DNA from: Candidatus Blautia faecipullorum
Lineage (GTDB): Bacteria; Bacillota; Clostridia; Lachnospirales; Lachnospiraceae
NCBI GenBank assembly: GCA_019115125.1
Contig: DXEG01000015.1
Span: 62,001 to 126,000 of the forward strand
Length of the DNA stretch: 64,000 nucleotides
Direction: 5' to 3'
The notes beneath the pieces are model-generated. The model saw only the letters and a program-made list of their open reading frames with translations, made no database searches and was not told the DNA's origin. Of this stretch, positions 1,963 to 46,652 are shown in pieces (the first letter of the stretch is position 1; each line of letters starts with the position of its first letter). The translations under genes and the position numbers were made by a program.

Positions 1963-2721
1963 TTACAGAACCGAATCTATCAGCTTTTTCGTATATTCCA
2001 TCTGGGGATGGTTGATGATCTCGTCAGGAGTTCCGTATTCCACCACTTTTCCCTGAGAGAGTACCAGAACCTTCTCACAGAAGGCCTGCACCAAAGCCAG
2101 ATCATGGCAGATCAGCAGAAATGAGAGTTTCTCTTTTTCCTTCAGCTCTGTCAAAAGCTCCAGGATCTGTTTCTGAACGGTAACGTCCAGAGCGCTGGTG
2201 GCCTCGTCGCATATCAGGATAGCAGGCTCTACGGCCAGGGCTCTGGCAATAGCCGCTCTCTGACACTGGCCGCCGCTGACCTGATGGGGATACCGGTCCG
2301 CAAATTCCGGCGTCAGGCCGCATCTCTGAAGGAGAGCCTCTGTCCTTTTTCTGGCCTGCGCCTTACTCATACCCATATTCCGCAGACTTTCACCAACCCC
2401 GTCTCCCAGGGTACGGCGGGGATCAAAGGATTCCGCCGACATCTGAAACACCATCTGCATAGCTTTATAGGTTTCCCTCAGCTCCCGCCCCTTCACATCG
2501 GTTATATCCTTTCCATTCAGAAACACTTTTCCCTCTGTAATACTCAGAAGATGGGTAAGCAGCTTCGCGATTGTGCTTTTTCCCGAGCCGGATTCGCCTA
2601 CAATTCCCAGACATTCCCCCTTCTCCAGAGAGAAGCTGACGTCGTCCACTGCTGTAAATGATTTTTTTCCTGTGACGAACACCTTTTTCAGGTGCTGCGC
2701 CTGTAAGATTGTCTCTGCCAC
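1963..2721 (-). CDS. Peptide/nickel-type ABC transporter ATPase (DppF/NikE-like)
   Basis: One of the two nucleotide-binding subunits of a dipeptide/oligopeptide/nickel-family importer. The 252-residue protein shows Walker A 'GESGSGKST', signature 'VSGGQCQRAAIARAL' and Walker B 'ILICDEATSALD', with the H-loop 'LLICHDLALV'. It starts with GTG at 2721, chosen because GGAGG lies 7 bases upstream. Last gene of a five-gene minus-strand operon, 15 bases after the partner ATPase, and followed by a terminator. Substrate cannot be read from an ATPase. Confidence 0.9.
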   Translation of the reverse strand: MAETILQAQHLKKVFVTGKKSFTAVDDVSFSLEKGECLGIVGESGSGKSTIAKLLTHLLSITEGKVFLNGKDITDVKGRELRETYKAMQMVFQMSAESFDPRRTLGDGVGESLRNMGMSKAQARKRTEALLQRCGLTPEFADRYPHQVSGGQCQRAAIARALAVEPAILICDEATSALDVTVQKQILELLTELKEKEKLSFLLICHDLALVQAFCEKVLVLSQGKVVEYGTPDEIINHPQMEYTKKLIDSVL

Positions 2722-2736
2722 GCCCCGCCTCCGTTT

Positions 2737-3534
2737 TTAAGCACGTTTTAAATGCAGAACGGAGCTCATCAGCTTTCTGGTATAGGGATTCTCCGAATGT
2801 CTCAGCACCCGTTCTGTTTCCCCGTAATCCATCACCGTACCGTTCTGCAGAACCAGAACCTGATCCGCCATGGCGCGGACCACTCCGATATTATGTGTAA
2901 CAACGATCATTGCCGTGTGATATTCCGCCCTCATCAGCTTCAGCTCCTCCACTACCTGTTTCTGAACTGTCACATCAAGGGCGCTGGTAGGCTCGTCAGC
3001 CAGAAGGAGTCTGGGCTTCTGCATCATCGCCATACAGATGCCCACCCTCTGGTTCATGCCTCCCGACAGCTCGAAGGGATAGCTGTCAAGTACTCTGCCG
3101 CTGTCGGAGAGACCTATTTTCTGCATGATCTCTTTTGCCCTCCTGCGTGTCTCCTGCTTTGACACCTTCTCATGGGCACGGACAGCCTCGTGTATTTGGA
3201 CGCCTATTGTGCGTACCGGACAAAGCGCCGCGCCGCAGTCCTGAAAGACCATTCCGATTTCCGGGCCCAGAAGCTTTCTTTTATTTTTTTCGGGCATGTC
3301 CACAATATTTTCACCTTTATACCAGATATCCCCCTCTGTGACCATTCCGGACGGTCCCAGAAGCCCCAGGATCCCTCTGATGACCGTACTTTTTCCGCTT
3401 CCGGATTCACCCACGATTCCCAGAATTTCTCCCTGGCCGAGGGTAAAGCTCACATCCTTTACAACCGGCTTTCCATTGTAGCAGATTGTCACATGCTCCG
3501 CATGAAGTAATGGTTCCATTTCTTTCTTATTCAA
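2737..3534 (-). CDS. Peptide/nickel-type ABC transporter ATPase (DppD/NikD-like)
   Basis: Second nucleotide-binding subunit, 265 residues. Walker A is 'GESGSGKSTVIRG', the signature is 'LSGGMNQRVGICMAMM' and Walker B is 'LLLADEPTSALD'. The C-terminus lacks the long Cys-rich oligopeptide-ATPase tail, which fits NikD-like forms. A TTG at 3534 with GGAG 7 bases upstream is used as the start; an ATG at 3519 is an alternative. The gene overlaps the end of the binding-protein gene by 8 bases, so the two are translationally coupled. Confidence 0.9.
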   Translation of the reverse strand: MNKKEMEPLLHAEHVTICYNGKPVVKDVSFTLGQGEILGIVGESGSGKSTVIRGILGLLGPSGMVTEGDIWYKGENIVDMPEKNKRKLLGPEIGMVFQDCGAALCPVRTIGVQIHEAVRAHEKVSKQETRRRAKEIMQKIGLSDSGRVLDSYPFELSGGMNQRVGICMAMMQKPRLLLADEPTSALDVTVQKQVVEELKLMRAEYHTAMIVVTHNIGVVRAMADQVLVLQNGTVMDYGETERVLRHSENPYTRKLMSSVLHLKRA

Positions 3535-5071
3535 TGTTCAGCTCCGCTGTAATCTCATAGTAGTCGCAGGGATGAGGATTGATTCCTGTGACGTTTGCTT
3601 TCGTTACGATGCCCATATTCAGATGAGCCACAAAGAAGAAGGAAGCGTCGTCCAGGATCTTCTGCTGCAGCTCCACCGCCAGCTCTCCTCTCTCTTCCTG
3701 GTCAAAGGTCTTATGAAGAGTTTCCACCAGGCCGCTGACCTCCTCATTCTGATAATTTCCATAGTTCTTTGCCCCTGCCACCGTACTGGTAAAGAAATAC
3801 TCCGGATCTCCTGTGGGAGCCGTGGTTGCGGAACTGATATAAAGATCAAACTCTCCGTTTTCCGCGTAGGTCATATGATCCGGCGTGTTGTTGATCTGTA
3901 CGTCGATACCTATGTTTTTCAGAGTTTCCTGGGCGTATATGGCAAGGAGCGGCTGCTCCAGGCGGTTCGGATATGTCAGCCAGTTAATTGTCAGCTTCCG
4001 GCCGTCTTTGTCCACATAGCCGTCTCCGTCCGTGTCCGTCCAGCCGGACTCCTCCAGCAGAGCCTTCGCTCCCTCAGGATCATAGCCCGGAGCGGTCACG
4101 GCCTCGTTTCCATAGGAAAAGCTGCCTGGAAACGCTCCCACAGCCGGAATACACCTTCCATACGCCAGCACATTGCAGAACTGCTCGCGGTCGATACCCA
4201 TTTCAATGGCTTTTCTCACATTGATATCCTGAACGATCTCAGAATCCATATTAAACTGCCCGAAAAAGCAGCGGCTCGTGGGAACTGAACTGATCGCATA
4301 CTCCGGATTATTCTCAAAAAGCGGATAGTTGTCGTACTGAAGGCCGTAGGTTCCCTGAATATCCCCTGTCTGCAGGGCGGCCGCCAGGGAACCGGCGTCG
4401 GAAAATGATTTTACGATCACGTTGTCCACATTCACCTCTCCGCCCCAGTAGTTCTCATTCTTTACAAGATGGATCTCCGTGGGCGTCACCTCCTCGGCGA
4501 TATAGGGGCCCGTGCCGGAAACATTGGCGTAGCCTGCCTCCCCTTCGATCCCGGCCTCCATATCGATCACAGCGCCGTAGGGATCTCCCAGATAATTGAT
4601 AATGGCCGGACAGGGCTCCTCCGTTACAATAGTCAGGATATTTCCCTCCGCCTCCATATGGTCGATCAGCAGATCATAGGGAGCCCGGTCATGCACCTCG
4701 ATCAGATGCTCAAAACACTCCTTCACCGCCTGAGCGTCCATAGTACGTCCGCTGGAAAACCGCACTCCGTCGCGGAGAGTGATCTTTACGGTAGTGTCGT
4801 CCACAAACTCGTAGTCGGTCGCCAGCCACGGCTCAATTTCCATGTTGTCGTTATACTTAAAAAGGGTCTCGCCCACACCGTACCGGAGAGCGCTCCATCC
4901 GGAATAGTTGTCGTGGGGATTCAGCCCCGCGTCGCCCTGGGCTTCGCCATAGCCTACTGTTCCATAGACAAACGTCTTTTCCTCCGCGGCGGACACACTG
5001 ACTCCCGGCGCCGCTGCCGTCCCGCAGATCATCGCGCATGACATAAGAACTGCCGTGATTTTCTTTTTCAT
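3527..5071 (-). CDS. Extracellular solute-binding protein, family 5 (peptide/nickel type)
   Basis: Substrate receptor of the importer, 514 residues. An N-terminal signal peptide ends near 'VSVSAAEEK'; no canonical lipobox is seen, the nearest Cys being in 'LMSC' and 'MICG'. The mature part has the SBP family 5 core: 'GVGETLFKYNDNMEIEPWLAT', 'VKITLRDGVRFSSGR', 'GTGPYIAEE' and 'FNMDSEIVQDINVRKAIEMGID'. The start at 5071 is chosen because GAGGTG lies 7 bases upstream; a GTG 9 bases earlier overlaps that site. Gene order B-C-binding protein-D-F matches several nickel, metallophore and peptide systems. The ligand may be a dipeptide, a metal chelate or another small amino-acid derivative; the sequence does not decide. 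Confidence 0.88.
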   Translation of the reverse strand: MKKKITAVLMSCAMICGTAAAPGVSVSAAEEKTFVYGTVGYGEAQGDAGLNPHDNYSGWSALRYGVGETLFKYNDNMEIEPWLATDYEFVDDTTVKITLRDGVRFSSGRTMDAQAVKECFEHLIEVHDRAPYDLLIDHMEAEGNILTIVTEEPCPAIINYLGDPYGAVIDMEAGIEGEAGYANVSGTGPYIAEEVTPTEIHLVKNENYWGGEVNVDNVIVKSFSDAGSLAAALQTGDIQGTYGLQYDNYPLFENNPEYAISSVPTSRCFFGQFNMDSEIVQDINVRKAIEMGIDREQFCNVLAYGRCIPAVGAFPGSFSYGNEAVTAPGYDPEGAKALLEESGWTDTDGDGYVDKDGRKLTINWLTYPNRLEQPLLAIYAQETLKNIGIDVQINNTPDHMTYAENGEFDLYISSATTAPTGDPEYFFTSTVAGAKNYGNYQNEEVSGLVETLHKTFDQEERGELAVELQQKILDDASFFFVAHLNMGIVTKANVTGINPHPCDYYEITAELNIE

Positions 5072-5093
5072 TTCTGTCACCTCGTATTTTCTT

Positions 5094-5954
5094 TTATTTT
5101 GACCTTTGTTTCGGATCCATATAATCTCTCAGGGTATCTCCCAGAAGATTAAATATCATAACTGTTACGAAAATCGCGCAGCCGGGAGCCAGAACCATCC
5201 AGGGCGCCACCTGGAGAAGATTTCTTCCCTCGTTGATCATACTGCCCCATTCCGCCATAGGAGGCTTTACTCCAAGTCCCAAAAAGGACAGTCCCGCAAG
5301 CTCCATCATCATGGTTCCGATATCCAGCACAGCCGTTACCAGAACCGGCCCCGCTATATTTGGCAGCATATGCCGGAAAAGAAGCTTCGGCGCCGTACAC
5401 CCCGACAGTCTCGCCGCCATCATATAGTCGGACTCCTTCTGAGCCAGCGCAAGGCCTCTGGCAAGTCTGGCGAACTTCGGCCAGCTTATGACCGCGAGGG
5501 CAATGACCGCATTGTGAATACCCCCGCCCAGCACTCCCGCCACCGCAAGGGCGAATACAAGACTTGGGAACGCAAGAAAGAGATCGGAAATGCGCATCAG
5601 GATCATATCTGTCTTTCCGCCCCGCCATCCGCATATCAGACCGATCGCCGTGCCTCCCGCAGCCGTTACGGCCACCAGAAGAAGGGTGGCGTAAACGCTG
5701 ACTGTGCTTCCAGTGATCACGCGGGAAAGCAGGTCTCTTCCATAGCGGTCTGTGCCAAAGGGATGCGCCAGACTGGGCGGCTTCTGGGCCTGCATCAGAT
5801 CCTGCGCATAGGGATCATAGGGACAGATGTATTGCGCAAAGGCCGCCGCGGCCAGAAGAAGCGCCGCGAGAACCGCGAAAAACAGCAGCTTGCCCTTCAC
5901 ATGATTTTTCTTTATTTTCTGCTTCCTCACCGTAACCGGCGCGGCTGTACTCAT
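5094..5954 (-). CDS. ABC transporter permease (DppC/NikC-like)
   Basis: Inner-membrane permease subunit of 286 residues. One N-terminal helix ('LLFFAVLAALLLAAAAFA') is followed by the short 'HPFGTDRYGRDLLSRVITGS' segment typical of DppC/OppC/NikC, and then a five-helix BPD_transp_1 domain carrying the EAA-like loop 'AARLSGCTAPKLLFRHMLPN'. Its ATG overlaps the stop of the preceding permease gene by four bases, indicating coupled translation. The binding-protein gene follows after 22 bases. Confidence 0.92.
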   Translation of the reverse strand: MSTAAPVTVRKQKIKKNHVKGKLLFFAVLAALLLAAAAFAQYICPYDPYAQDLMQAQKPPSLAHPFGTDRYGRDLLSRVITGSTVSVYATLLLVAVTAAGGTAIGLICGWRGGKTDMILMRISDLFLAFPSLVFALAVAGVLGGGIHNAVIALAVISWPKFARLARGLALAQKESDYMMAARLSGCTAPKLLFRHMLPNIAGPVLVTAVLDIGTMMMELAGLSFLGLGVKPPMAEWGSMINEGRNLLQVAPWMVLAPGCAIFVTVMIFNLLGDTLRDYMDPKQRSK

Positions 5955-6895
5955 GCGGCGTCACCTCCCAGCTTCACCCGTGGATCCAGATAATGATAAA
6001 TAATGTCCGTGATCAGGTTCACCGCCACATAGATCACCGCCATCCAGGCCACATAGGCCTGGATGATCGGATAATCACGCATGGTGATGGCGTCCACCGC
6101 CATTTTTCCCACGCCGTCCCACATGAAAATGGTTTCAATAATCGTCGTTCCTCCCAGAAGGCTGCCTATTGAGAGAGCCAGCAGGGTGATGATCGTCAGC
6201 ATAGAGGATTTCATGACGCTTTTCCAGATAATAATGTGTCCGCGCACTCCCCTGGCCCTGGCTCCCGCCACATAATCTTTGTTCAGCTCCTCCAGCACCG
6301 TCGCCCGAACCTGTCTCGTGTACTTGGAAGCCATGGAAACGGCAAGAGTCAGCGTAGGCAGAACGATGCTCTGTCCAAGATTGTCGTTCGCGACGACAGG
6401 AAACCATCCTAGCCGTATGGAAAAAAAATACATCAACACCATGGCGGCAAAAAAATTCGGCATGGAATTTCCGATAAAACTTAAGAAACGGATCAGATAG
6501 TCTGTCCACCTGTTATGCTTTACCGCCGACAAGATACCCAGGGGAACCGCCAGCAGGATCGTAAGAATTACCGATGACGCCGTTAGCTGGATTGTGGCCG
6601 GAAGCTTGGGTACGAATGTTTCGTACACATCTCTTTTTGATACATAGCTTTTTCCCATGTCGCCTGTGGCCATTCCGGCGAACCACCTGGCATACTGGAC
6701 GAGAAACGGCTGATCCAGACCGTACTCTGCCTTCGCCTGATCGATCACCTCCTGGGGAACATTGACGCCTGCGTTTTCATACATATAAGTAACCGCGTCG
6801 CCTCCCGCAAGGCGCATCATGGCAAAGGACAAAAATGTAATGCCGATCAGTATGGGAATAAGCTGCAGGAGTCTCTTCAGAATATATTTCCCCAT
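5951..6895 (-). CDS. ABC transporter permease (DppB/NikB-like)
   Basis: First gene of the importer operon; 314 residues. It opens with the conserved 'KRLLQLIPILIGITFLSFAM' helix and contains 'VTYMYENAG..IDQAKAEYGLDQPFLVQYARW' and the EAA loop 'ARARGVRGHIIIWKSVMKSS' of DppB/NikB permeases. The frame is open 102 bases further upstream, but that extension is encoded by the 36-bp repeat region and has no ribosome site; the ATG at 6895 has AAAGGGG 10 bases upstream and starts exactly where the family does. Confidence 0.92.
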   Translation of the reverse strand: MGKYILKRLLQLIPILIGITFLSFAMMRLAGGDAVTYMYENAGVNVPQEVIDQAKAEYGLDQPFLVQYARWFAGMATGDMGKSYVSKRDVYETFVPKLPATIQLTASSVILTILLAVPLGILSAVKHNRWTDYLIRFLSFIGNSMPNFFAAMVLMYFFSIRLGWFPVVANDNLGQSIVLPTLTLAVSMASKYTRQVRATVLEELNKDYVAGARARGVRGHIIIWKSVMKSSMLTIITLLALSIGSLLGGTTIIETIFMWDGVGKMAVDAITMRDYPIIQAYVAWMAVIYVAVNLITDIIYHYLDPRVKLGGDAA

Positions 6896-6925
6896 GATAC
6901 CCGCCCCTTTCTGTGATTTATCTTC

Positions 6926-7033
6926 AGGATGTAGCTGCGCACATCCTCTGTTTGCCATTAGAGGATTCAGCGGCTCACATCCTCTGTGTATCATCAAAGG
7001 ATCCAGCGGCTTACACCCTCATGAAATAGATTC
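6926..7033. repeat. Three tandem 36-bp imperfect hairpin repeats
   Basis: Units begin at 6926, 6962 and 6998 with a strict 36-base period. Each starts AGGAT and carries GCxxACATCCT or a variant. In units 1 and 2 the opening AGGAT(GT) pairs with (AC)ATCCT, forming small stem-loops. The array lies 31 bases upstream of the dppB-like start in its leader or promoter region. The third unit is more diverged (ACACCCT). Role unknown; regulator or RNA-binding sites are possible. Confidence 0.7.
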
Positions 7034-7061
7034 CCGCGGCAGCGTCTCCGCTTCCGCCATC

Positions 7062-7125
7062 AAAAAGAATAGCAGACCCTCCCCGCCGGAACAAGCCCGG
7101 CCGGGGGATATCTGCTATTCTTTTT
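7062..7125. terminator. Bidirectional-type terminator after the LysR gene
   Basis: Perfect 15-bp arms AAAAAGAATAGCAGA (7062-7076) and TCTGCTATTCTTTTT (7111-7125) enclose a GC-rich inner region that can also pair (CCGCCGG/CCGGCCGGGG). T-runs follow on both strands. It terminates the minus-strand LysR gene that ends at 7159. Confidence 0.8.
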
Positions 7126-7158
7126 CTTCATAAATATTTATATTTCAGGAATACCTGT

Positions 7159-8064
7159 TCACTGCAGTCTGTCCGCCAAAAAGTGAATCAGTTCCTCTAT
7201 TTCTTCGGCTATATCCTCCCCTTTATGGCGGATATAGCCGAAGATCACTTTATTTGCCTCAGTATCCAGAGGAATTCCGGGCGTATCTCCCATTTCTCTT
7301 TCCGAAAGATATTTCCCGCTTATATTGGACACATTCGCTTTTTTCAGCATTTTTTCCATAATGTAGTCGCTGTTGGTTACTACGGAAATATCCAGGCTGC
7401 TCCAGGAAAAAGAAGGCTTCTCTTCCGCTGTCTTAAAGTTCAGGAATTCATCCTGATAGTTCTGGATGAACCGCAGCCCCTTCAGATCTTCCGGTTTGGC
7501 AAAGCTTCTCATGGAATGAAAAAGACCGCTTCCGCCGCCCGGATACAGCATCAGCGCCGTCGCGTGCATCGGCACGAATTCCAGCCGGTTTCTTGACAGC
7601 TCATAGAGAAAATCCTCTTTCTGCTGCTCCAGGATATAGACAAAGCCCACATCATCCAGATAGTCCCTCATTCTCTCCATCACGGTTCGGACTCCCGCCG
7701 TATAGATCTGAAAATGATAGTTCTTATCATAATTTTCATTATAAAAGTCCACGAACTGATTGGCGAACCAGGAGCTTGGATTCAGAGAAATCCGGATCCA
7801 TTTCGTCATGCCGTGTTCCGCCATTCCCTCCAGCGCCCGGATCTCTCCCAGGATCTTAGAGGCATGACGGTAAAACTTTTTTCCGGCGGCTGTCAGGCGT
7901 ATCCCTCTGGGAAGCCGTTCAAATAACTGCAGCCCAAGAGAGTCCTCCAGTCCTTTGATCACCTTGCTCACACTGGGCTGGGTAGAATATAAGATTTTCG
8001 CGGCCTCGCTGACGGAACCTGCTTCCGCGCAGGCCATAAAATACTCAAGCTGTTTGATGTCCAT
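7159..8064 (-). CDS. LysR-family transcriptional regulator
   Basis: A 301-residue regulator. The N-terminal winged helix-turn-helix is clear: 'MDIKQLEYFMACAEAGSVSEAAKIL' followed by 'STQPSVSKVIKGLEDSLGLQLFERLPRGIRLTAAG'. Residues about 90-295 form the effector-binding domain, which is rather divergent. It lies between the importer operon (downstream, separated by a terminator) and the AstE-methyltransferase fusion gene (upstream, 141 bases), all on the minus strand. It is therefore the natural candidate to control one or both, perhaps through the 36-bp repeats; no effector is inferable. Confidence 0.9.
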   Translation of the reverse strand: MDIKQLEYFMACAEAGSVSEAAKILYSTQPSVSKVIKGLEDSLGLQLFERLPRGIRLTAAGKKFYRHASKILGEIRALEGMAEHGMTKWIRISLNPSSWFANQFVDFYNENYDKNYHFQIYTAGVRTVMERMRDYLDDVGFVYILEQQKEDFLYELSRNRLEFVPMHATALMLYPGGGSGLFHSMRSFAKPEDLKGLRFIQNYQDEFLNFKTAEEKPSFSWSSLDISVVTNSDYIMEKMLKKANVSNISGKYLSEREMGDTPGIPLDTEANKVIFGYIRHKGEDIAEEIEELIHFLADRLQ

Positions 8065-8205
8065 ATAATTTTAATCTCTCCGTTTAACGCCAGTGCGAAA
8101 GGCAGTAATTCTCACGCTCCTGATTTTTTTAACTGAACCGATTAAAGCTCCAGACCTTGTAATCCCAGTAATTTTCAATTTCTTCTTTCTCGGGGCGCCG
8201 ACATG

Positions 8206-9918
8206 TCATTCAGGCTTCTGTGTCCGCAGCATAAACATGGGCACCGGATTATAAAAGGCGTCCTTCTCCAGATAGATCCTGCCGCTGATCCCAAGATCCA
8301 CCGCGAACTCCTGAAGCTTCATGGCTCCCAGCGTTTCCAGATCCCAGGCCGGACGGCTGTAGGAGCTGATGGGAAGCTGACGTTTGATCTCCTCGCACTC
8401 CCGCATCATCTCATCTCCGATCTGCTGGTGAGCATGATTTCCCGGAAGGGCGGATACGTCCGTAAAATCGCTGAGACCGTAGTTCGCGTCAAAATTCAGA
8501 AGCACGCCGCCTTTTTTCAGTACGCGCACCCACTCTCTGTAGGCATGGCGCACATGAGGCAGCGTCCAGGTGAGATTTCTGGAGATCACCACGTCGAAGG
8601 TTTCATCCGCAAAATCCAGCTTCTCAGCGTCCATAACCATAAATTCGCAGTCCGCCTTTTCCTCGGCCGCCAGAACTCTGGCGTTTTCCACCATATCGGG
8701 CGTCAGATCCACCCCCGTCACCTGATGTCCTTCTCCCGCAAGCAGCACGGAAAAAAATCCGGCTCCGCAGCCTACGTCCAGGATCCGCAGACCTTTTTTC
8801 TCCGGGATCCGGCTTCTGATCTCCTTCATCCAGCGTCCGGCCATGGCGCTGTGAAGCTCCGCCCTTTTATGCGTCAGAAAATCACTGCTTCGTTTCTCCC
8901 AGTAGTGCACGATCCGTTCTTTCCGCTCATCATAAGGGTTTACTACCTTTCCGTAGGCGACCATCGGGCCGTCCCCCAATACCTGGAGGCTTCCTGTCTG
9001 ATAAAGGATCACGCCGCCAAACTCAGCGATACTTGTCTCTATTACCTTTCCCTGGTAATCCCGGACTTCTCCCAGCTTTTCTCCTCTGTGGATCATATCT
9101 CCCGGCTTTCTCGCGGGATACCAGAGACCGTCCTGGGAAGCGTCCTGATAGCGCACATCCGTCACCTCCAGAGGATAATAGGTACGGTAATCCTTCTGTC
9201 CCTGGTAAAGCCCCAGATGGCAGAGGATATTCCGCACATCCCTCCTTGTGGAGCGCACCTCCTCATAGGTCCAGCCGCCCATACCGCCTCTTTCTATGAG
9301 AATACTGGGGATTCCCTGGGAGGCGGCGTAGTTGTAGGAGCCTCCCGAGGCTACATTTGATCTTACCATATACGGCACGTCCACCTGCTCCGCCATCCTT
9401 CTGGACTCAGCGGCAACCTTCTCCTCCGCTTTTCCCGCATAGTACACATACGGCGTAAGCTGTTCATAATCGTCGCCGCTGTGAAGATCGATATAGTAAT
9501 CCGCCGCAGGCTGCAGCTCTCTGGACACCGCCCAGGCAAGACGCTCCATCTCTGTCCCGTCGGGGCTTCCCGGAAATTCTCTGTTCAGGTTTTTTCCGTC
9601 CTCCAGCCCCATGCTTCCGCTTCTTTTCTCAAAAGCAGGAAGATTCATCACCTTTACAATGATCACCGTTCCCACAATCTTTTCCGGCTTCAGCTTGCAG
9701 GAAAGCTCTATGGCCGCCTGGATCCCCACATATTCTCCCGCGTGGACTCCCGCCGTGATCAGCATGGTTTTTCCTGGCTTTTCTCCGTGAAGGACGGATG
9801 CCGGAAGACGTATGCTTCCTCCGGCCAGTTCCAGAAAGCCGTCCCAGCGCTGTCCCGGCAGCGCTTCTATGTTATTTAGTCTGAAAATATCTGTTGTTTC
9901 CCTTTTTTCTTCCATCAT
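8206..9918 (-). CDS. AstE/aspartoacylase-like deacylase fused to class I SAM methyltransferase
   Basis: A 570-residue two-domain protein. Residues about 25-325 are an M14-type zinc deacylase of the succinylglutamate desuccinylase/aspartoacylase family. Zinc ligands His59 and Glu62 ('GVHAGEYVG') and His146 ('YIDLHSGDD') are present, as is the substrate motif 'NLNREFPG' and Glu209 in 'SILIERGGMGG'. Residues about 335-570 are a Rossmann methyltransferase with SAM motif 'LRILDVGCGAGFF' (378-388), acidic loop 'VTGVDLTPDM' and 'RNLTWTLPHVRHAYREW'. Both halves appear intact. The methyltransferase half resembles the separate protein of the gene just upstream. The domain pairing suggests sequential deacylation and methylation of one small substrate, possibly that of the neighbouring importer; this is inference. 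Confidence 0.85.
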   Translation of the reverse strand: MMEEKRETTDIFRLNNIEALPGQRWDGFLELAGGSIRLPASVLHGEKPGKTMLITAGVHAGEYVGIQAAIELSCKLKPEKIVGTVIIVKVMNLPAFEKRSGSMGLEDGKNLNREFPGSPDGTEMERLAWAVSRELQPAADYYIDLHSGDDYEQLTPYVYYAGKAEEKVAAESRRMAEQVDVPYMVRSNVASGGSYNYAASQGIPSILIERGGMGGWTYEEVRSTRRDVRNILCHLGLYQGQKDYRTYYPLEVTDVRYQDASQDGLWYPARKPGDMIHRGEKLGEVRDYQGKVIETSIAEFGGVILYQTGSLQVLGDGPMVAYGKVVNPYDERKERIVHYWEKRSSDFLTHKRAELHSAMAGRWMKEIRSRIPEKKGLRILDVGCGAGFFSVLLAGEGHQVTGVDLTPDMVENARVLAAEEKADCEFMVMDAEKLDFADETFDVVISRNLTWTLPHVRHAYREWVRVLKKGGVLLNFDANYGLSDFTDVSALPGNHAHQQIGDEMMRECEEIKRQLPISSYSRPAWDLETLGAMKLQEFAVDLGISGRIYLEKDAFYNPVPMFMLRTQKPE

Positions 9919-9995
9919 CCTGATTTCGCCTCTGCAATTTTCTAAGTCTCGGGACTGCTTTCCATTTTAAACCGTCCCCGCCGCTGATTCATTTT

Positions 9996-10859
9996 TTACC
10001 TCTCTGTGCTCTCCGTTCTGAAACCGCTCAGAAGGAACACAGGCGTAGAACTGTTATTGACGATCTCCTCCTCTGTCCAGACCTCTGTCCAGACCTTTTC
10101 ATCGCAGGCCACATTCCGGAATCCGGCTCTTTTCATAGCCTCCAGATCCCACTGAGGCCGTTTCAGCCTGCTCAGCGGAACCTGTCTGGCGATGTTTTCC
10201 ATACGTTCGATATCCGTTCCCTGATAGTAATCCTCAAATTCCTGTTCTTCCACCTGGCGGCGGTCTTTTTCGTACCCGTTTCTTTTTTCCTCATTGAAAA
10301 GATGTCCGTACCAGTCCGCGTCAAAATTATAAAGCGCGCCGCCTTCCTTCAGAACACGGAACCACTCTCTGTACGCCTGCTCCGGTTTCGGAAGATTCCA
10401 GGTTACATTTCTGGTAACGACCGCGTCAAATACGCCGCTGTCTTCCCTGAGTTCCTGAACATCCTCCACCCTCCAGTGGATTTTTCCCGCCAGCTCCCCC
10501 GCGTTTTTGCGGGCTTCCCTCAGCATCTCCTCCGTGGCGTCCGCGGCTGTGACCTGATATCCCGCCTCCGCCAGAAGAATCGCGAAAAATCCGGGGCCTG
10601 TACCTGCGTCCAGTATCCTGATCTCACCTGGCTCCCTGTCCGGAAACGCCTCCTTTAATAAAGAAAGGAGCTTTTCCTTCCACATACTTCTCCTGGCGTC
10701 CGCCATTTCCTGGCGGTTATATTTTGAATAGCCCTCCGCTCTCTCCGTCCAGTAATCACGGATTTCCTGACGCAGTGAAGCGTCCTCCGCGCAGGCTTCC
10801 TGTCCTTCTGATCTATATCCCGCCCTCTCCGGGGCTGTGTTTTCCTGTAATTTGTCCAT
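9996..10859 (-). CDS. Class I SAM-dependent methyltransferase
   Basis: A 287-residue methyltransferase of the UbiE/type 11 fold. SAM-binding motif 'IRILDAGTGPGFFAILLAEAG' and 'VTAADATEEM' are followed by 'AVVTRNVTWNLPKPEQAYREW' and 'GGALYNFDADW'. The same signature words, in the same order and with the same 'RPQWDLEAM' and 'PVFLL' tail, occur in the methyltransferase half of the next gene, so the two are paralogues. The start at 10859 is preferred over an upstream ATG at 10901 because AGAGAGAGA precedes it. Substrate unknown. Confidence 0.85.
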   Translation of the reverse strand: MDKLQENTAPERAGYRSEGQEACAEDASLRQEIRDYWTERAEGYSKYNRQEMADARRSMWKEKLLSLLKEAFPDREPGEIRILDAGTGPGFFAILLAEAGYQVTAADATEEMLREARKNAGELAGKIHWRVEDVQELREDSGVFDAVVTRNVTWNLPKPEQAYREWFRVLKEGGALYNFDADWYGHLFNEEKRNGYEKDRRQVEEQEFEDYYQGTDIERMENIARQVPLSRLKRPQWDLEAMKRAGFRNVACDEKVWTEVWTEEEIVNNSSTPVFLLSGFRTESTER

Positions 10860-10930
10860 ATTCTCTCTCTCTTTTATTCTTTGGTTCCACAGCATCTCCA
10901 AATAAACCTGACTCTGTGCCTACCCATTAT

Positions 10931-10970
10931 AAAAAAAAGGATCCCCCGGGACAAGCCTCCCCGGGGGATA
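10931..10970 (-). terminator. Terminator of the glycosyltransferase gene
   Basis: On the minus strand, CTATCCCCCGGGG and CCCGGGGGATCC form a very GC-rich stem followed by eight Ts. It ends the plsY-like/glycosyltransferase unit and separates it from the methyltransferase gene. Confidence 0.85.
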
Positions 10971-10976
10971 GTTTTT

Positions 10977-12098
10977 TCAAATTTTTCTGTTTTCCACCTG
11001 TTCCCTGATAAATTCATAAAGCCGCACTGCCGCGTCCCCGTCTATCTGGGTTTTCTGGCAGTCCTTCATCCTTTCGGCAGCCGTGGGATCCCTCATAAGC
11101 TCTATCCCTTTCTTCACCTGGCCTTTCACAGTGCCGGCGGACCAGCTCATCCCCGAGCGGACAAAAAATTTGCGGTTCGCGGTTTCGCATCCGGGAATAG
11201 GATTGGTATGGATCATGGGAACTCCCGCCACCGCGGCCTCTGTGGAGGTAAGACCTCCCGGCTTCGTAAAGAGAACGTCGCAGGCCTTCAGATACAGCGG
11301 CATCTGGGTGGTAAAGCCCAGGATCTCTACTTTTTTGTCCTCCGCGTATTTCTTTTTCAGCTTCTGCTCCGCCTTCTGGTTGCTTCCGCAGATCACAATG
11401 ATCTTTTCTTCCTGGACGCCGCTCAAAAGCGCCTTCAGAAATTCGTCCAGATCTCCGGCTCCCATGCTTCCTCCCGCCGCGAGGAAATATTTTTTATCCG
11501 CCTCCAGGCCAAGCCTTTTTCTGGCCTCCGCCTTTGATATCTGTTTCCGGCAGGCTCTTGATACCGGGATTCCGAAGGGCAGGAGCTTCTCCTGGGAAAG
11601 CCCTCTTTTCACGCAGGATTTTCTGAGAGCCTCGTGGGACATCACATAATAGTCGCAGTCCGTCTCCTCCCAGAAAGGAATACAGGTGTAATCCGTCATC
11701 ACCGCCACAGTCAGCGGCAGCTTCATTCCCCGGCGTCTCATGTAAGTGATCGTTTCCGCCGGATAAAGATGAGGCATCACCAGCACATCCACCGGATGCT
11801 CTCTCAGATAACGGTCCAGATATTTTGCCATTCTTCCGTTGAGATAATAAACCGGGGACTTCCGGGCAAGCTTGCTGACGCACATCCCCAGCTTATAAGC
11901 CGCCCCGAACAGTCTCGGCGTTTTTTTTACAATCTGTACATACCCGTCTCCCACCAGTCTGGAGACGCCTTCTCCCGCCAGGCAGAGGTAATCCAGGACA
12001 TAGGCCTCGTCGCCTCTGTCCTGCATCTCCTCCGCAATCGCCCGGGCGGCTGAATTATGGCCGCCTCCTGTATTGCAGGACAAAATCAATGCTTTCAT
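10977..12098 (-). CDS. MGDG synthase/UgtP-type glycolipid glycosyltransferase
   Basis: A 373-residue GT-B enzyme of the diacylglycerol glycosyltransferase family (GT28). The N-terminal MGDG_synth domain starts 'MKALILSCNTGGGHNSAARAIAEEM'. The C-terminal nucleotide-sugar half has 'GGSMGAGDLDEFLKAL' and 'CDVLFTKPGGLTSTEAAVAGVPMI', the latter being the UDP-sugar loop. It probably makes membrane glycolipids from UDP-glucose or UDP-galactose and a lipid acceptor. Its ATG overlaps the stop of the PlsY-like gene by four bases, linking acyl-lipid and glycolipid steps. Confidence 0.88.
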   Translation of the reverse strand: MKALILSCNTGGGHNSAARAIAEEMQDRGDEAYVLDYLCLAGEGVSRLVGDGYVQIVKKTPRLFGAAYKLGMCVSKLARKSPVYYLNGRMAKYLDRYLREHPVDVLVMPHLYPAETITYMRRRGMKLPLTVAVMTDYTCIPFWEETDCDYYVMSHEALRKSCVKRGLSQEKLLPFGIPVSRACRKQISKAEARKRLGLEADKKYFLAAGGSMGAGDLDEFLKALLSGVQEEKIIVICGSNQKAEQKLKKKYAEDKKVEILGFTTQMPLYLKACDVLFTKPGGLTSTEAAVAGVPMIHTNPIPGCETANRKFFVRSGMSWSAGTVKGQVKKGIELMRDPTAAERMKDCQKTQIDGDAAVRLYEFIREQVENRKI

Positions 12099-12706
12099 TC
12101 AAGCCTCCATTCTTCACCCCGCCGGAAAGCCGCGTTTGCCTTCAGGCAGTGTTTATGCACCACAATGGCCGATATTAGGATACAGCCCAAAAGAATCTCC
12201 CTGTGGGGTACCGTCAATATCGAGACAACAAGAAATAGCAGATACGCGTAAACACTTTTTCTCGTATTGGATTTCACCGGGAGCGCCACGGCGAACAGCA
12301 GGTAGCAGCCGATCAGGATCAGCAGAGGCTGACCGATCGGGTACAGACCAATGAGTACGCCGAAGGAGGCCGCGATGGCTTTTCCCCCGTGTCCTTTGTG
12401 AAAAACAGAGTGGGCGTGGCCAAACACAGGCGCCGCCATCACCAGCGAAAATTTCCAGGAATCCATGCCAAGATTCCTGGCGCACAGCGCCGTCGGTATC
12501 AGCCCCTTCGCGATATCCGCCAGAAGCACCAGGATCCCGCAGAAAACACCCCCGTACACAAACGCGTTAAAGGTTCCCGGATTTCCGTCCTCCGACTCCT
12601 TCCTGACGTCCACCCCGTACAGCAGCTCAGGGATCAGCCGCCCAAAAAGGAGGCTCCCCGACAGAAATCCCGCGATGATATAAAAATCATACCCATATTT
12701 CATCAT
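12095..12706 (-). CDS. PlsY-like glycerol-3-phosphate acyltransferase family membrane protein
   Basis: A 203-residue polytopic protein of the PlsY (YneS) family, which transfers acyl groups from acyl-phosphate to glycerol 3-phosphate. The three conserved PlsY blocks are recognisable in diverged form: 'SGSLLFGRLI', 'DGNPGTFNAF' (usual GSGNxGATN) and 'GHAHSVFHKGHGGKAIA' (usual GHxFPxFxxFKGGKG). Divergence in the first two blocks suggests a paralogue rather than the housekeeping PlsY. It is translationally coupled to the glycolipid glycosyltransferase downstream. Confidence 0.8.
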   Translation of the reverse strand: MMKYGYDFYIIAGFLSGSLLFGRLIPELLYGVDVRKESEDGNPGTFNAFVYGGVFCGILVLLADIAKGLIPTALCARNLGMDSWKFSLVMAAPVFGHAHSVFHKGHGGKAIAASFGVLIGLYPIGQPLLILIGCYLLFAVALPVKSNTRKSVYAYLLFLVVSILTVPHREILLGCILISAIVVHKHCLKANAAFRRGEEWRLE

Positions 12707-12797
12707 TTATATAACAGCTCCCGTCTGCATCTAAAAATTTATATCAGTTCAGCCCGCGCCTTTCGGAAACGCTTTCCTGCTGCCCTGCGCCTCGGAA

Positions 12798-13700
12798 TCA
12801 TAAAACCATGCTCCACAGGCAGATACTGGGCAGTGACAGCAAGGTAGAAAAAATCACCATTTTTGTGGCGAAGGCCGGTTCCATTTGATATTTTTCCGCC
12901 AGAATACTTGTGGTGGCCCCCGCGGGCATCGCGGCCAGAAGTACGCACACTCCGAACGCCGTTCTGTCCAGAGGAAGGAAGCGGCAGAGAATATATACCG
13001 CCGCCGGTATAATGACCAGCCGGTGGACCGTGAATTTCACTACCGTCCAGTCCCAGAAATCCCTGAGATCAATGTCGGCAAGTATCATTCCGATCACCAT
13101 CATAGACATGGCAGTATTGCAGTTGGCGACCGCCGTCACCATACCGTCCAGACCGGGCGGAAGACCCTTGTCCGCGGCCATAAGGATGATCCCCAGAATA
13201 CAGGTCAGTATACAGGGATGCGTCATAACCTTTTTTATGGTCTGTTTTCTGTCGCTGACGCCGGAAAAGACCGCCAGACCCGAGGACCACATCATAACCC
13301 TCTGGGGGATCAGATAAATACTGGCCAGCATCAGTCCCTCCGCCCCATAAACACCCTCCGCGATAGGATTTCCCAGAAATCCCGCGTTGGAGCAGATAGT
13401 CGCGTACCGGAGACATTTATTTCTGCCTTCCGGCTCCCGCCTGAATACAATTCTTCCATACAGCACACAAAAAGCCTGTATGCCTACAGAGATCAGCAGC
13501 ACCTCCGCGTAGGATAAAAAGCTTCCCTCCGCGGGACTGTCCAGAAACGCTCTCAGAATGTTGCAGGGCAGAATGACATAAATCACCAGATCATTCATAT
13601 TTTTCTGTCCCTGAGGGCCGATCAGATGAATACGCTTCATGACAAAGCCCACGGCTACAAGGAGAAAAATCGTGATCTGCAGTGTAATAAGTGTTCCCAT
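12798..13700 (-). CDS. AEC (auxin efflux carrier) family transporter
   Basis: A 300-residue protein with about ten hydrophobic segments and an AEC/PIN-like layout: 'LVAVGFVMKRIHLIGPQGQKNMNDLVIYVILPCNILRAF' at the N-terminus and 'VLLAAMPAGATTSILAEKYQMEPAFATKMVIFSTLLS' at the C-terminus. Members in bacteria are commonly malonate, malate or other organic-acid carriers; the substrate here is unknown. It is divergent from the thiamine operon, with about 140 bases to that promoter. Confidence 0.88.
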   Translation of the reverse strand: MGTLITLQITIFLLVAVGFVMKRIHLIGPQGQKNMNDLVIYVILPCNILRAFLDSPAEGSFLSYAEVLLISVGIQAFCVLYGRIVFRREPEGRNKCLRYATICSNAGFLGNPIAEGVYGAEGLMLASIYLIPQRVMMWSSGLAVFSGVSDRKQTIKKVMTHPCILTCILGIILMAADKGLPPGLDGMVTAVANCNTAMSMMVIGMILADIDLRDFWDWTVVKFTVHRLVIIPAAVYILCRFLPLDRTAFGVCVLLAAMPAGATTSILAEKYQMEPAFATKMVIFSTLLSLPSICLWSMVL

Positions 13701-13841
13701 ATTATCCTTCTTTCTTTTTCTTTCACATCCATCAGTTTATCACAAGGGCCAAACCCGCGCAACCGTGACGTGACGCCGTTCCTGCATGGCAGCGGTCATC
13801 TGCAAAAATACGAACTATCTTTCATTCCGAAGAAAAAAACC

Positions 13842-13870
13842 TTGCGCGCTTTCACTTTCCGGTGTATAAC
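13842..13870 (+). promoter_or_regulatory. Promoter of the thiamine operon
   Basis: TTGCGC (13842-13847), a 17-base spacer and TATAAC (13865-13870) place transcription start just ahead of the TPP riboswitch. Confidence 0.65.
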
Positions 13871-13883
13871 TAGAAAAGAAACA

Positions 13884-13975
13884 ACAGGGGAGCTTGTATG
13901 AGCAGGCTGAGAGGAAGTCATCAACTTCGACCCTTTAACCTGATGCGGATAATGCCGCCGTAGGGAGTCATGAAA
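13884..13975 (+). ncRNA. TPP riboswitch (THI element)
   Basis: The conserved THI-box words occur in order: 'GGGGAGC' (13887-13893), 'GGCTGAGAGGA' (13905-13915), 'GACCCTTTAACCTGAT' (13929-13944), 'CGGATAATGCC' and 'GTAGGGAG'. They form the P2/P3 pyrimidine-sensing and P4/P5 pyrophosphate-sensing arms. The element precedes thiW-thiM-thiED-thiC, consistent with repression by thiamine pyrophosphate. Confidence 0.97.
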
Positions 13976-13988
13976 TGAAACTATGTTT

Positions 13989-14022
13989 CAGGAGACACTC
14001 TGCGGGTGTCTCCTGTTTTTTC
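13989..14022 (+). terminator. Riboswitch-controlled attenuator
   Basis: A perfect 10-bp stem CAGGAGACAC/GTGTCTCCTG with a 7-base loop is followed by TTTTTTC. It lies 14 bases after the riboswitch core and about 100 bases before thiW, so ligand binding probably causes transcription termination. Confidence 0.9.
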
Positions 14023-14119
14023 TTTTCTGAAACTTTCCCCGGGACGGCAGCCGGCGAAGCATGGTGGTATCCCCCGGCCCGTGCCGTCTGCCCGGGAGCA
14101 AAAAAGGAGCGTGAATGAT

Positions 14120-14650
14120 ATGAAACATGTAAATGTTAGAAAACTGGCGGTGGCCAGCGTCTTCTGCGCCGTTGCCGTGGTGGGGAGTCTCTTTTCCTTT
14201 CCCATCTTCGGCAGCAAATGTTCCCCCGTTCAGCACATGGTGAACATTCTGTGCGCCGTCCTGCTGGGGCCCTGGTACGGAGTGGGGGCAGCCTTCGGAG
14301 CCTCCCTGATCCGCAATCTTCTGGGGCTTGGCAGTCTCATGGCATTCCCCGGAAGTATGCTGGGCGCCCTCCTATGCGGGCTGGTCTACTGGAAAACCAG
14401 GAATATTCCTGCCACCCTGGCGGGGGAGGTGTTCGGCACCGCCGTTCTGGGCGGCCTGTGCGCTTATCCGGTGGCAGTTCTTCTCATGGGACAGAGCGCC
14501 TCAGAGTTGGCGTTTTACGCCTACATTATTCCCTTCCTGATCTCCACCGGAGCCGGAGCGGTCATCTCCGGAGCTGTGATCTGCAGCCTGGAACGGACGG
14601 GAGTATACCAGGCCATGACGGAAAGCCTGAAGGAGGGCTATGCGCGGTAA
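14120..14650 (+). CDS. thiW: ThiW, thiazole-precursor ECF transporter S-component
   Basis: A 176-residue integral membrane protein with about five or six helices, matching ThiW, predicted to import hydroxyethylthiazole. Diagnostic text includes 'VASVFCAVAVVGSLFSFP', 'GSKCSPVQHMVNILCAVLLGPWYG' and 'GSLMAFPGSMLGALLCGL'. The start at 14120 is chosen because AGGAG lies 10 bases upstream and the family begins with 'KxxVRKLAVAS'. It is first in the TPP-controlled operon and is followed, with an 11-base overlap, by thiM, whose product phosphorylates the imported thiazole. Confidence 0.93.
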   Translation: MKHVNVRKLAVASVFCAVAVVGSLFSFPIFGSKCSPVQHMVNILCAVLLGPWYGVGAAFGASLIRNLLGLGSLMAFPGSMLGALLCGLVYWKTRNIPATLAGEVFGTAVLGGLCAYPVAVLLMGQSASELAFYAYIIPFLISTGAGAVISGAVICSLERTGVYQAMTESLKEGYAR

Positions 14651-15521
14651 GGCGGGGCTGACGTTTGGAAAAATGCTGGAAAACCTGCGTCAGAAGGCTC
14701 CCCTGATCCACAGCATCACCAATCCCGTCACCGTCAACCAATGCGCCAACATACTGCTGGCCTGCGGAGCCTCACCCATCATGGCGGATGATCCCATGGA
14801 AGCGGCTCAGATCACCGGAATCAGCGACGGCCTGGTTCTCAACATGGGAACCCTGAGCCAGAGAACCGTCCCCTCCATGATGGCTTCAGGGGAGCGTGCC
14901 GGCCAGTTGAGCCTTCCCATCGTCCTCGATCCTGTGGGGGTGGCCGCCTCCGGTTTTCGCATGAATACAGCCCGGATGTTTCTGGAAAGGCTCCCCCTCT
15001 CTGTCATCCGGGGCAATCTCTCAGAGTTCCGGGCTCTGGCAAAGCTCTCCGAAGGCCCCGCCGATGCGGATACCCTGACGGAGCTCTCCCGGGGGCCTGC
15101 CGGTGTGGATGCTCTGGCGGCTGACCGGATCACCCAGGAGAATCTGCCGGAGCTTTTAGACTTTGCCAGAGCTTTTGCCCGGAGGACGAAAACGGTGTCT
15201 GTCATCACCGGGGCCATTGATCTGGTCACAGACGGCGGGCGGGCATACTGTATCCGAAACGGCCATCCGCTGATGAGACGTGTCACCGGAACAGGCTGCC
15301 AGCTCTCCGCGCTGACCGGGGCATTTGCCGCCGCCAACCCGGGGTACATCCTGGAGGCGGCGGCAGCGGCAGTGACCGCCATGGGCCTTGCCGGAGAGAT
15401 CGCCTGGAAGCGCCTGGGCCCCGGCGAGGGAAACATGACCTATGGAAACTACATCATCGACGCGGTCTGTCATCTGACTTCGGAAGATTTGGAAAAAGGG
15501 GGAAATTATGAAATTCGATAA
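14640..15521 (+). CDS. thiM: Hydroxyethylthiazole kinase
   Basis: ThiM phosphorylates 4-methyl-5-(2-hydroxyethyl)thiazole for salvage into thiamine. The 293-residue protein has 'PLIHSITNPVTVNQCANILLACGASPIMAD' (substrate pocket), 'LPIVLDPVGVAAS', 'VIRGNLSEF' and the anion-hole/ATP motif 'VTGTGCQLSALTGAF', whose Cys is the expected catalytic-region residue. A stretch around residues 135-165 is longer than usual and contains a near repeat of 'LTELSRGPA'/'LAKLSEGPA', a small local duplication. It overlaps thiW by 11 bases and thiED by 14 bases. Confidence 0.95.
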   Translation: MRGKAGLTFGKMLENLRQKAPLIHSITNPVTVNQCANILLACGASPIMADDPMEAAQITGISDGLVLNMGTLSQRTVPSMMASGERAGQLSLPIVLDPVGVAASGFRMNTARMFLERLPLSVIRGNLSEFRALAKLSEGPADADTLTELSRGPAGVDALAADRITQENLPELLDFARAFARRTKTVSVITGAIDLVTDGGRAYCIRNGHPLMRRVTGTGCQLSALTGAFAAANPGYILEAAAAAVTAMGLAGEIAWKRLGPGEGNMTYGNYIIDAVCHLTSEDLEKGGNYEIR

Positions 15522-16971
15522 AAATCAGCTTCTGCTCTATGCGGTCACTGACCGGGCCTGGACAGGAAAACAGAGTCTGACGGAGCAGGTGGAAGCCGCC
15601 CTGAGAGGGGGCGTCACCTGCGTCCAGCTCAGGGAAAAGGAACTGGATGAGGACACATTTTTAAAGGAAGCCCGGGAGATCGCCGTTCTCTGCAGGCGGT
15701 ATCGTGTACCCCTGATCATCAATGACAATCCCTGGATCGCGGCGGCCTGCGGCGCCGACGGCGTCCATGTGGGCCAGGGCGACCTGACAGTCAGGGAGGC
15801 GCGCGCCATCGCCGGTGAGCAGATGATCGTGGGAGTCTCCGCCCACAGCGTGGAGGAAGCTCTGGCCGCACAGCGGGAGGGGGCGGACTATCTGGGCGCC
15901 GGAGCCATGTTCCTAACCTCCACCAAGTCCGACGCCTCCCCCCTGTCGAAGGACACCCTGAGGGCAATCTGCCAATCGGTATCGATCCCTGTCGTCGCCA
16001 TCGGGGGTATTCAAAAAAATAATATCCGCTCCCTGGCAGGCTGCAAAGCCGCGGGGGTTGCCCTGGTCAGCGCCATCTTCGGCGCGGAGGATATCGAGAC
16101 CGCCTGCCGGGAGCTGGCCATTCTGGCCAGGCAGATGCGGGATGAGGAGACAGGGATGAAGACAGCCCTCTCCATCGCCGGAAGCGACTGCAGCGGCGGC
16201 GCGGGCATCCAGGCGGATTTAAAAACCATGATGGCAAACGGCGTCTACGGAATGAGCGCCGTCACTGCCCTCACCGCCCAGAATACCCTGGGCGTATCCC
16301 GGATCGAGGCAGTCTCCCCCTCCTTGCTGGCCAGCCAACTGGACGCTGTTTTCACCGATATTCGCCCTGACGGGGTAAAGATTGGCATGATCCCCTCCCG
16401 GGAGCTGATGGAGACCGCCGCCAGGCGTCTGCTCTTCTACCGGGCTGAACATATTGTCATTGATCCGGTGATGGCCGCCACCGCCGGCTCCAGCCTGATG
16501 GACGCGGGGGCTTTGGAAACGCTGAAGGAGAGTCTGCTTCCCCTTGCCCAGGTCATCACCCCCAATATCCCGGAGGCAGAAGTTCTCTCAGACAGCCGGA
16601 TCGAGAGCAGGGAGGATATGCTCCGGGCAGCCGCTCTCCTCTCACGCCGATACGGCTGCGCCGTTCTGCTGAAGGGCGGTCATGCAGACTTTCCGGGACA
16701 AAAGGACAGCGGTCAAACCTGCGATGACCTGCTGTTTTCTGAGGAAACACCCCAGTGGTTTTTGGCCAGACGGCTTTCCAATCCCAACACTCACGGCACC
16801 GGATGCACGCTCTCCAGCGCCATCACCGCCAACCTGGCAAAGGGACTTGACCTTGCCGAAGCCGTAAGAGGCGCCAAGGAGTATCTCTCCGGAGCCATCG
16901 AAGCCGGGTTGGATCTGGGCCATGGCAGAGGACCGCTGAACCACGGCTACAGTCTAAGGACGGAGCACTAA
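15508..16971 (+). CDS. thiED: Bifunctional thiamine-phosphate synthase / HMP(-P) kinase (ThiE-ThiD fusion)
   Basis: A 487-residue fusion. Residues 1-210 are ThiE, joining HMP-PP and thiazole phosphate: '[18 protein letters not shown]', '[26 protein letters not shown]', '[14 protein letters not shown]' and 'PVVAIGGI'. Residues 217-487 are ThiD, phosphorylating hydroxymethylpyrimidine twice: '[21 protein letters not shown]', '[13 protein letters not shown]' and '[13 protein letters not shown]'. The linker is only a few residues, and an internal Met217 begins the ThiD half without a clear ribosome site, so a true fusion is likely. It supplies both the last precursor kinase and the coupling enzyme from one polypeptide. 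Confidence 0.95.
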
Positions 16972-46550: not shown

Positions 46551-46652
46551 TTCAATCAGCTTTCTTTTTCTGCTTATATGATATGTCTGTTCATTCTGTC
46601 TGGTTCCGGAAAAACACGCCGCTTTCCGTGCTTTCAGTGTCATTCCACAGGA

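Follow-up and report, generated by a model that had tools for sequence, protein, structure and literature searches.

The 64,000-nucleotide stretch of Candidatus Blautia faecipullorum DNA analysed here (the window; positions 62001-126000 of its contig, in a 3.5 Mb genome) carries a set of eight genes at 1963-10859, all on the minus strand, which encode a five-gene NikA-type ABC importer, a LysR-type regulator, a fusion of a zinc deacylase with a methyltransferase (MT-A), and a second methyltransferase (MT2). Our leading interpretation, to which we give close to an even chance, is that these genes let a Blautia-like gut acetogen take up nickel, in an operon that couples import to the processing of a nickel-carrying ligand. 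We observed a conserved gene order, conserved putative zinc and S-adenosylmethionine (SAM) sites in the enzymes, and linkage both to nickel/cobalt importers and to nickel enzymes. In the proposed mechanism, the NikA/Opp5A-like binding protein and OppBCDF would import a nickel chelate. The cytoplasmic methyltransferase-deacylase-methyltransferase enzyme, represented in the window by MT2 and the fusion, would then hydrolyse an amide bond of the ligand and would methylate the ligand or its products; the processed ligand would lose its hold on the metal, and nickel would be freed for urease and carbon monoxide dehydrogenase (CODH). We infer that the enzymes use the ligand as their substrate, that this ligand contains an amide bond, that import comes before processing, and that the steps occur in this order. 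The features of the set were as follows.

1963-2721, minus strand: OppF/NikE-type ATPase (PF00005, 114.6 bits; NikE, 231 bits, below the cut-off of 332.55)
2737-3534, minus strand: OppD/NikD-type ATPase (PF00005, 115.1 bits; top NCBIfam models CntF, CntD and NikD, all below cut-off)
3527-5080, minus strand: family 5 substrate-binding protein, NikA/Opp5A-like (NF045468, 327.5 bits, below the cut-off of 600)
5094-5954, minus strand: OppC/NikC-type permease, Opp2C (NF045474, 313.2 bits; cut-off 300)
5951-6895, open reading frame open to 6997, minus strand: OppB/NikB-type permease, Opp2B (NF045470, 368.4 bits; cut-off 350)
7087-7071, minus strand: terminator-like hairpin between LysR and OppB (consensus scan only)
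7159-8064, minus strand: LysR-type regulator (PF00126, 72.1 bits)
8206-9918, minus strand: fusion of zinc deacylase and methyltransferase MT-A (PF24827, 98.9 bits; Methyltransf_11, 91.5 bits)
8944-9918, minus strand: deacylase part of the fusion, residues 1-325 (PF24827, 98.9 bits; cut-off 25)
8206-8928, minus strand: MT-A, C-terminal methyltransferase of the fusion, residues 331-570 (Methyltransf_11, 91.5 bits; cut-off 21.2)
9996-10859, open reading frame open to 10901, minus strand: MT2, class I SAM-dependent methyltransferase, MT-B paralogue (Methyltransf_11, 72.9 bits; cut-off 21.2)
10954-10926, minus strand: promoter-like site 5' of MT2 (consensus scan only)
10969-10941, minus strand: terminator-like hairpin 5' of MT2 (consensus scan only)

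The original prediction, made from the sequence alone, had described eight same-strand genes joining a family 5 importer to a zinc deacylase-methyltransferase fusion and a paralogous methyltransferase. Searches with Pfam and NCBIfam domains recovered all eight genes on the minus strand at 1963-10859, and the Pfam profiles confirmed the importer, the fusion and the paralogue. The broader proposal of a metal-ligand importer coupled to tailoring enzymes was well supported, and its cargo could be narrowed to nickel or cobalt; the N-acylated nature of the ligand, and the choice between importing and building it, are matters of interpretation. Because terminator-like sites precede MT2 and separate LysR from OppB, the eight genes are probably organized as two transcription units, MT2-fusion-LysR and the importer. 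By eye, the binding protein carries an N-terminal signal-like stretch, and the enzymes have no evident signal sequence, so the fusion and the methyltransferases probably act in the cytoplasm.

The identity of the importer points to its cargo. Both permeases passed the cut-offs of models that NCBIfam describes as nickel permeases, Opp2B (368.4 versus 350) and Opp2C (313.2 versus 300). The closest solved relatives of the binding protein were 3t66 and SaNikA (4ofj), both nickel-binding proteins, with Escherichia coli NikA more distant. We consider the link to a metal strong and a nickel or cobalt cargo well supported; the importer class carries either metal, and nickel fits the window better. The host genome contains urease and CODH and encodes the cobalt importer CbiMNQO at another site, and nickel is the more likely cargo there. 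Because the host has CbiMNQO for cobalt and its genome gave no match to NicO, the operon is left as the host's visible nickel importer among the nickel transporter families searched. An excerpt of a paper on Blautia urease places nickel transport genes elsewhere in the genome (PMC12001548). A GGGtGRT protein (L136, 5360-6370, minus strand) adjoins the CbiMNQO genes of the host.

The importer and the enzymes were consistently found together. A scan of genome contigs yielded 29 named loci with a relative of the fusion, all of which were used; some are cut by contig ends (for example L034, L046 and L058), and those nearest to the window fusion are Blautia records. In 20 of the 29, MT2 and the fusion form a single open reading frame of 813-866 residues with the order methyltransferase-deacylase-methyltransferase, while MT2 is separate from the fusion in nine, as in the window; in every locus it lies no more than 1 kb away. 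The original prediction had suggested a search for co-occurrence with NikA-type importers and had named widespread occurrence of the fusion without an importer as an outcome that would speak against it. In 29 of 29 named loci we found a family 5 OppB permease gene on the strand of the fusion, no more than 8 kb downstream of it, and hence no such widespread separation. Orthologues of the window OppB (at least 45% identity) were present in 26 loci and of the binding protein (at least 44%) in 24, and a LysR relative (at least 35%) was found within 6 kb in 17. The sole family 5 importer in the fetched range of L035, L043 and L045 is a distant one (25-35%). Eight loci (L036, L037, L039, L041, L042, L051, L053 and L055) additionally have a second, distant NikA-like family 5 importer within the set or following it, and the binding proteins of the two such importers that were scanned, from L041 and L051, resemble nickel_nikA below its cut-off.

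Genes upstream of the operon that are shared by three to five loci (choline-binding, NlpC/P60, DAPDH, helicase and DUF6320 acyltransferase, each typed by one member) were set aside as lineage-bound. L051, L053 and L055 each encode a DUF6320-type protein a short distance upstream of their fusion operon (6572-8383 in L051), and the window encodes a DUF6320/acyltransferase-like protein at 44739-46643 on its minus strand. Extra fusion or deacylase copies with an internal stop codon were observed at G102:C1:1439388-1440753 and G263:C55:146604-147566.

We compared 299 genomes of the host's family, covering 298 genera, of which 13 carry the full fusion and 286 do not. The p-values are rough, as genomes were treated as independent at about one per genus despite their shared ancestry, and absences are approximate, as the protein searches scored at most four or five candidates per genome. 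Urease was found in 10 of the 13 fusion genomes and in 11 of the 286 others (p = 6.7e-11), and nickel CODH in 12 of 13 versus 52 of 286 (64 genomes at E ≤ 1e-50, 61 of which pass the curated cut-off). Since CODH alone could reflect acetogenesis, we gave more weight to urease; of the 64 CODH genomes, 12 have the fusion and 10 of these have urease, against 9 of the 52 that lack the fusion (p = 2.9e-5). The binding protein and the enzymes are likewise linked: matches to the methyltransferases or the deacylase (AspA) occurred in 26 of 28 genomes with a strong match to the binding protein (E ≤ 1e-120) and in 17 of 271 without one. The strong class leaves out five genomes whose matches were weaker (E ≤ 1e-90); enzyme matches were present in one of these, G025.

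Urease is a nickel-only enzyme, and its tracking of the fusion even among CODH genomes argues against a reading in which the importer carries cobalt or a corrinoid precursor in place of nickel and the enzymes serve cobalt or corrinoid salvage. We consider that reading clearly improbable. It draws on the need of CODH genomes for corrinoids and on cobalamin riboswitches in relatives. These riboswitches, like the cobalt genes near some fusion loci, also speak for the nickel or cobalt importer of our leading interpretation. In an Rfam run on the window and 49 loci, a cobalamin riboswitch was found directly 5' of the importer in five relatives (L062, L066, L126, L128 and L129, with L126 and L128 from one genus). 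The same-strand run that starts with the riboswitch and importer in L062 extends into AspA, MT2 and MT-A, and in L066 a NiCo riboswitch separates the methyltransferase gene from one for cation efflux. L129 contains, in addition, a FecBCD-type importer and a TonB receptor that best matches the model of the B12 receptor, though below cut-off. Cobalt genes also lie near some fusion loci: after the fusion of L045, on the opposite strand, there are a cobalamin riboswitch and genes for CbiM, CbiN, CbiQ and a CbiO-CbiK-like protein; L044 has the same Cbi gene clusters and riboswitch; and CbiM-type genes adjoin the set in L052 and L054, with CbiQ over its cut-off in L052. A B12 riboswitch ahead of NikABCDE members had already been noted for two species, in an excerpt of an earlier paper (PMC2667541). 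Against the cobalt reading, the host already has CbiMNQO for that metal, and the importer that adjoins the fusion is of the NikA type. Rfam also detected no riboswitch near the window operon; the sole match in the window at the gathering score was a thiamine pyrophosphate (TPP) riboswitch on the other strand (13876-13983, plus strand, 71.5 bits).

The association between methyltransferase and importer extends beyond the fusion loci. Matches to MT-A were found in 36 of 398 genomes of the phylum (E ≤ 1e-20), and regions were fetched for 20 of these 36; a NikA-type importer adjoins a methyltransferase of the MT-A/MT2 family in 14 of the 20, and three regions (L112, L113 and L122) are truncated by a contig edge. 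In L120, both methyltransferases and the five importer genes form a single run. Within the host's family, 20 regions were fetched, three with the full fusion and 17 without it, and family 5 permeases lie near in 12 of the 17. A Proteus mirabilis record contains a relative of MT2 (47% identity) directly upstream of a binding-protein gene, which is followed by four importer genes. At 626 bits this binding protein clears the NikA cut-off of 393, the permeases pass Opp1B and Opp1C, and the locus has a single methyltransferase and no deacylase relative. According to the excerpted text of a review, the Nik system of P. mirabilis can supply nickel to urease, secondary to the primary importer Ynt (PMC11026637); this locus presumably is that Nik system. 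In an excerpt of a transposon study, none of the genes of the putative Nik transporter of P. mirabilis contributed significantly to fitness when the species infected alone (PMC5484520).

These linkages bear on two further alternatives. The set could serve the ordinary uptake of peptides or N-acyl amino acids, with AspA trimming the compound for nutrition and the methyltransferases unrelated to it. Family 5 importers often carry peptides, and AspA relatives do stand beside other family 5 importers without methyltransferases in L064 and L073. We nevertheless regard this reading as very improbable, because the permeases pass nickel-subfamily cut-offs and the binding protein has NikA relatives, urease and CODH are associated with the fusion, the methyltransferases are linked to Nik importers across the phylum and in P. 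mirabilis, and NiCo and cobalamin riboswitches occur in relatives. Alternatively, the methyltransferases could act on the transporter or on the ligand of a cytosolic nickel chaperone and not on an imported carrier, which would agree with the finding that one methyltransferase suffices beside some importers. The fusion of two methyltransferases with a zinc deacylase suggests instead a single small-molecule pathway, and this last alternative seems to us barely credible.

The sequences of the enzymes suggest that they function. The fusion belongs to the AstE/AspA zinc hydrolases (PF24827, 98.9 versus 25 bits), and H59, E62, H146, E209 and R113 of its deacylase, including the HxxE motif and the second histidine, were unchanged across 30 aligned fusions. 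In the alignment these five residues match the same residues of the solved relative 3na6, and from this alignment and what is known of the family we take them to include the zinc ligands and the catalytic glutamate. A predicted model of the fusion had a mean predicted local distance difference test score (pLDDT) of 83 and a predicted template modelling score (pTM) of 0.66, and its top fold matches were DoeB (6twm; template modelling score 0.83 over the target) and 3cdx. MT-A and MT2 belong to the class I SAM-dependent methyltransferases (Methyltransf_11, 91.5 and 72.9 versus 21.2 bits) and keep the SAM motif. On a midpoint-rooted tree the methyltransferase domains formed two paralogue clades of 53 and 58 domains, each of which includes members from outside the host family. 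Across the 111 aligned domains 14 columns did not vary; these include a C-terminal R-P and D as well as G53, G55, G57 and D74, which belong to the putative SAM site. Because the putative zinc-site and SAM-site residues are invariant, the deacylase and both methyltransferases look active.

A sharper version of the nickel-processing reading would have the methyltransferase-deacylase-methyltransferase enzyme hydrolyse the imported nickel chelate and methylate both halves, which would block re-chelation. We hold this version to be doubtful; if it were true, methylation would be a general means by which bacteria as far apart as gut acetogens and Proteus strip nickel or cobalt from Nik-type chelates.

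A different role for the same enzymes would be to build a secreted metallophore, by deacylation and methylation of a precursor, which the importer would then retrieve as in staphylopine-type systems; this we consider unlikely. Opine metallophore loci do pair NikA-type importers with tailoring enzymes and thus offer a precedent. Such building would call for an exporter and for an enzyme that makes the scaffold; candidate exporters were indeed present. A MATE gene lies directly 3' of MT-A in L062 and directly 5' of AspA in L073, and seven of the 29 named loci share with the window another MATE gene, close to the operon but on the opposite strand. In the window this MATE transporter is encoded at 19982-21307 on the plus strand, about 9 kb from MT2, and is 89% identical to one near the L032 operon. 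These exporters fit ligand export and could carry either a newly made ligand or a spent one. As for the scaffold, no ligand-building gene that recurs was identified across the partly annotated loci. The prediction that no nicotianamine-synthase-like gene is present held for the host genome, where PF03059 gave no match (genome 97% complete, control positive), and staphylopine-type membership was dropped on this ground. The search for opine dehydrogenase (PF10100) carries no weight either way, as neither it nor its control gave a match. Furthermore, a single methyltransferase stands alone with the importer in P. mirabilis and others, which speaks against metallophore building. Processing of an imported carrier to release its metal is the likeliest role of the enzymes.

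Together with the MATE genes, several other observations weigh against the nickel-processing interpretation. The binding protein missed the cut-offs of Opp5A (327.5 versus 600) and NikA (174.1 versus 393) and also that of CntA. R137 and H416 are named as residues of E. coli NikA in an excerpt of a published study (PMC2667541), and in our own reading of a phmmer alignment the corresponding columns of the window protein are not R and H. Among nickel enzymes, LarA was not associated with the fusion (3 of 13 versus 58 of 286 genomes) and was rejected as a nickel client, and the fusion genome G150 gave no match to urease, CODH or LarA. G202 and G298 have the binding protein without the methyltransferases or AspA. 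Of the phylum regions, L114, L121 and L130 are without a NikA-type importer, with FecCD-type importers in L121 and L130. Among the 17 non-fusion family regions, L068 has an OppD-like gene only and four (L061, L063, L065 and L077) have no family 5 permease. AspA relatives occur without methyltransferases in L065 as well as in L064 and L073, and two methyltransferases on Selenomonas plasmids have no annotated importer within 12 kb. Finally, the importer riboswitches are all in relatives with unfused genes, and Rfam found no riboswitch upstream of the operon in any of the 12 named fusion loci scanned.

We compared the set with known systems and found it similar in part to each of them. Like NikABCDE and Opp5A-Opp2BCDF, it has a five-gene family 5 importer, with Opp2B and Opp2C over their cut-offs and nickel-binding relatives of the binding protein, whereas its binding protein and ATPases fall below the NikA, NikD and NikE cut-offs and its operon adds LysR and ligand-type enzymes. 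The staphylopine Cnt system likewise has a NikA-type importer beside small-molecule enzymes, and the window OppD-like ATPase best matches CntF and CntD, below cut-off; in the window, by contrast, the enzymes are a zinc deacylase and SAM methyltransferases, the binding protein falls short of the CntA cut-off, and the host gave no match to nicotianamine synthase. With the DoeB/AstE/aspartoacylase enzymes (PF24827), the fusion shares the putative zinc-site and catalytic residues and the DoeB fold, and it differs by its fusion to methyltransferases and by missing the equivalog cut-off of the N-acetyl-diaminobutyrate deacetylase DoeB (TIGR02994, 121.5 versus 402.7 bits). The Nik-type operon of P. 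mirabilis resembles the set in the placement of an MT2 relative directly upstream of the binding-protein gene, and differs in its lone methyltransferase, lack of a deacylase, NikA-passing binding protein and Opp1B/Opp1C permeases.

Among the literature matches listed (titles and abstracts, open-licence PMC), a methyltransferase or AspA protein with a Nik importer was undescribed, which is weak evidence of absence; the set consists of known parts in a combination not met among these matches. To our knowledge, the carrier that brings nickel into anaerobes, and how the metal leaves it, are largely open questions. For Blautia, the operon offers a candidate nickel importer, and it names a conserved enzyme set open to purification and testing; with relatives in urease-positive and in cobalamin-regulated loci, the question can be tested in several organisms.

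Some minor observations were made in the relatives and the window. L129 carries, at 3422-15633 on the plus strand, two cobalamin riboswitches, a NikA-type importer, a methyltransferase, the FecBCD-type importer and the TonB receptor resembling BtuB. In L126 (10210-10911, plus strand) and L128 (8638-9336, minus strand), a gene for a Fer4_16 4Fe-4S protein lies between those for the methyltransferase and the binding protein; in both loci the importer operon has a cobalamin riboswitch, and the 4Fe-4S protein is perhaps a reductase for the imported complex. A SECIS element and a selenocysteine tRNA lie near the methyltransferase pair of L077 (18884-19276, plus strand). Relatives on Rhizobiales plasmids were found at about 30% identity, and one that was viewed adjoins phn genes. 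Elsewhere in the window, a DUF1538 protein of 505 residues with two copies of the domain is encoded at 37130-38647 on the minus strand.

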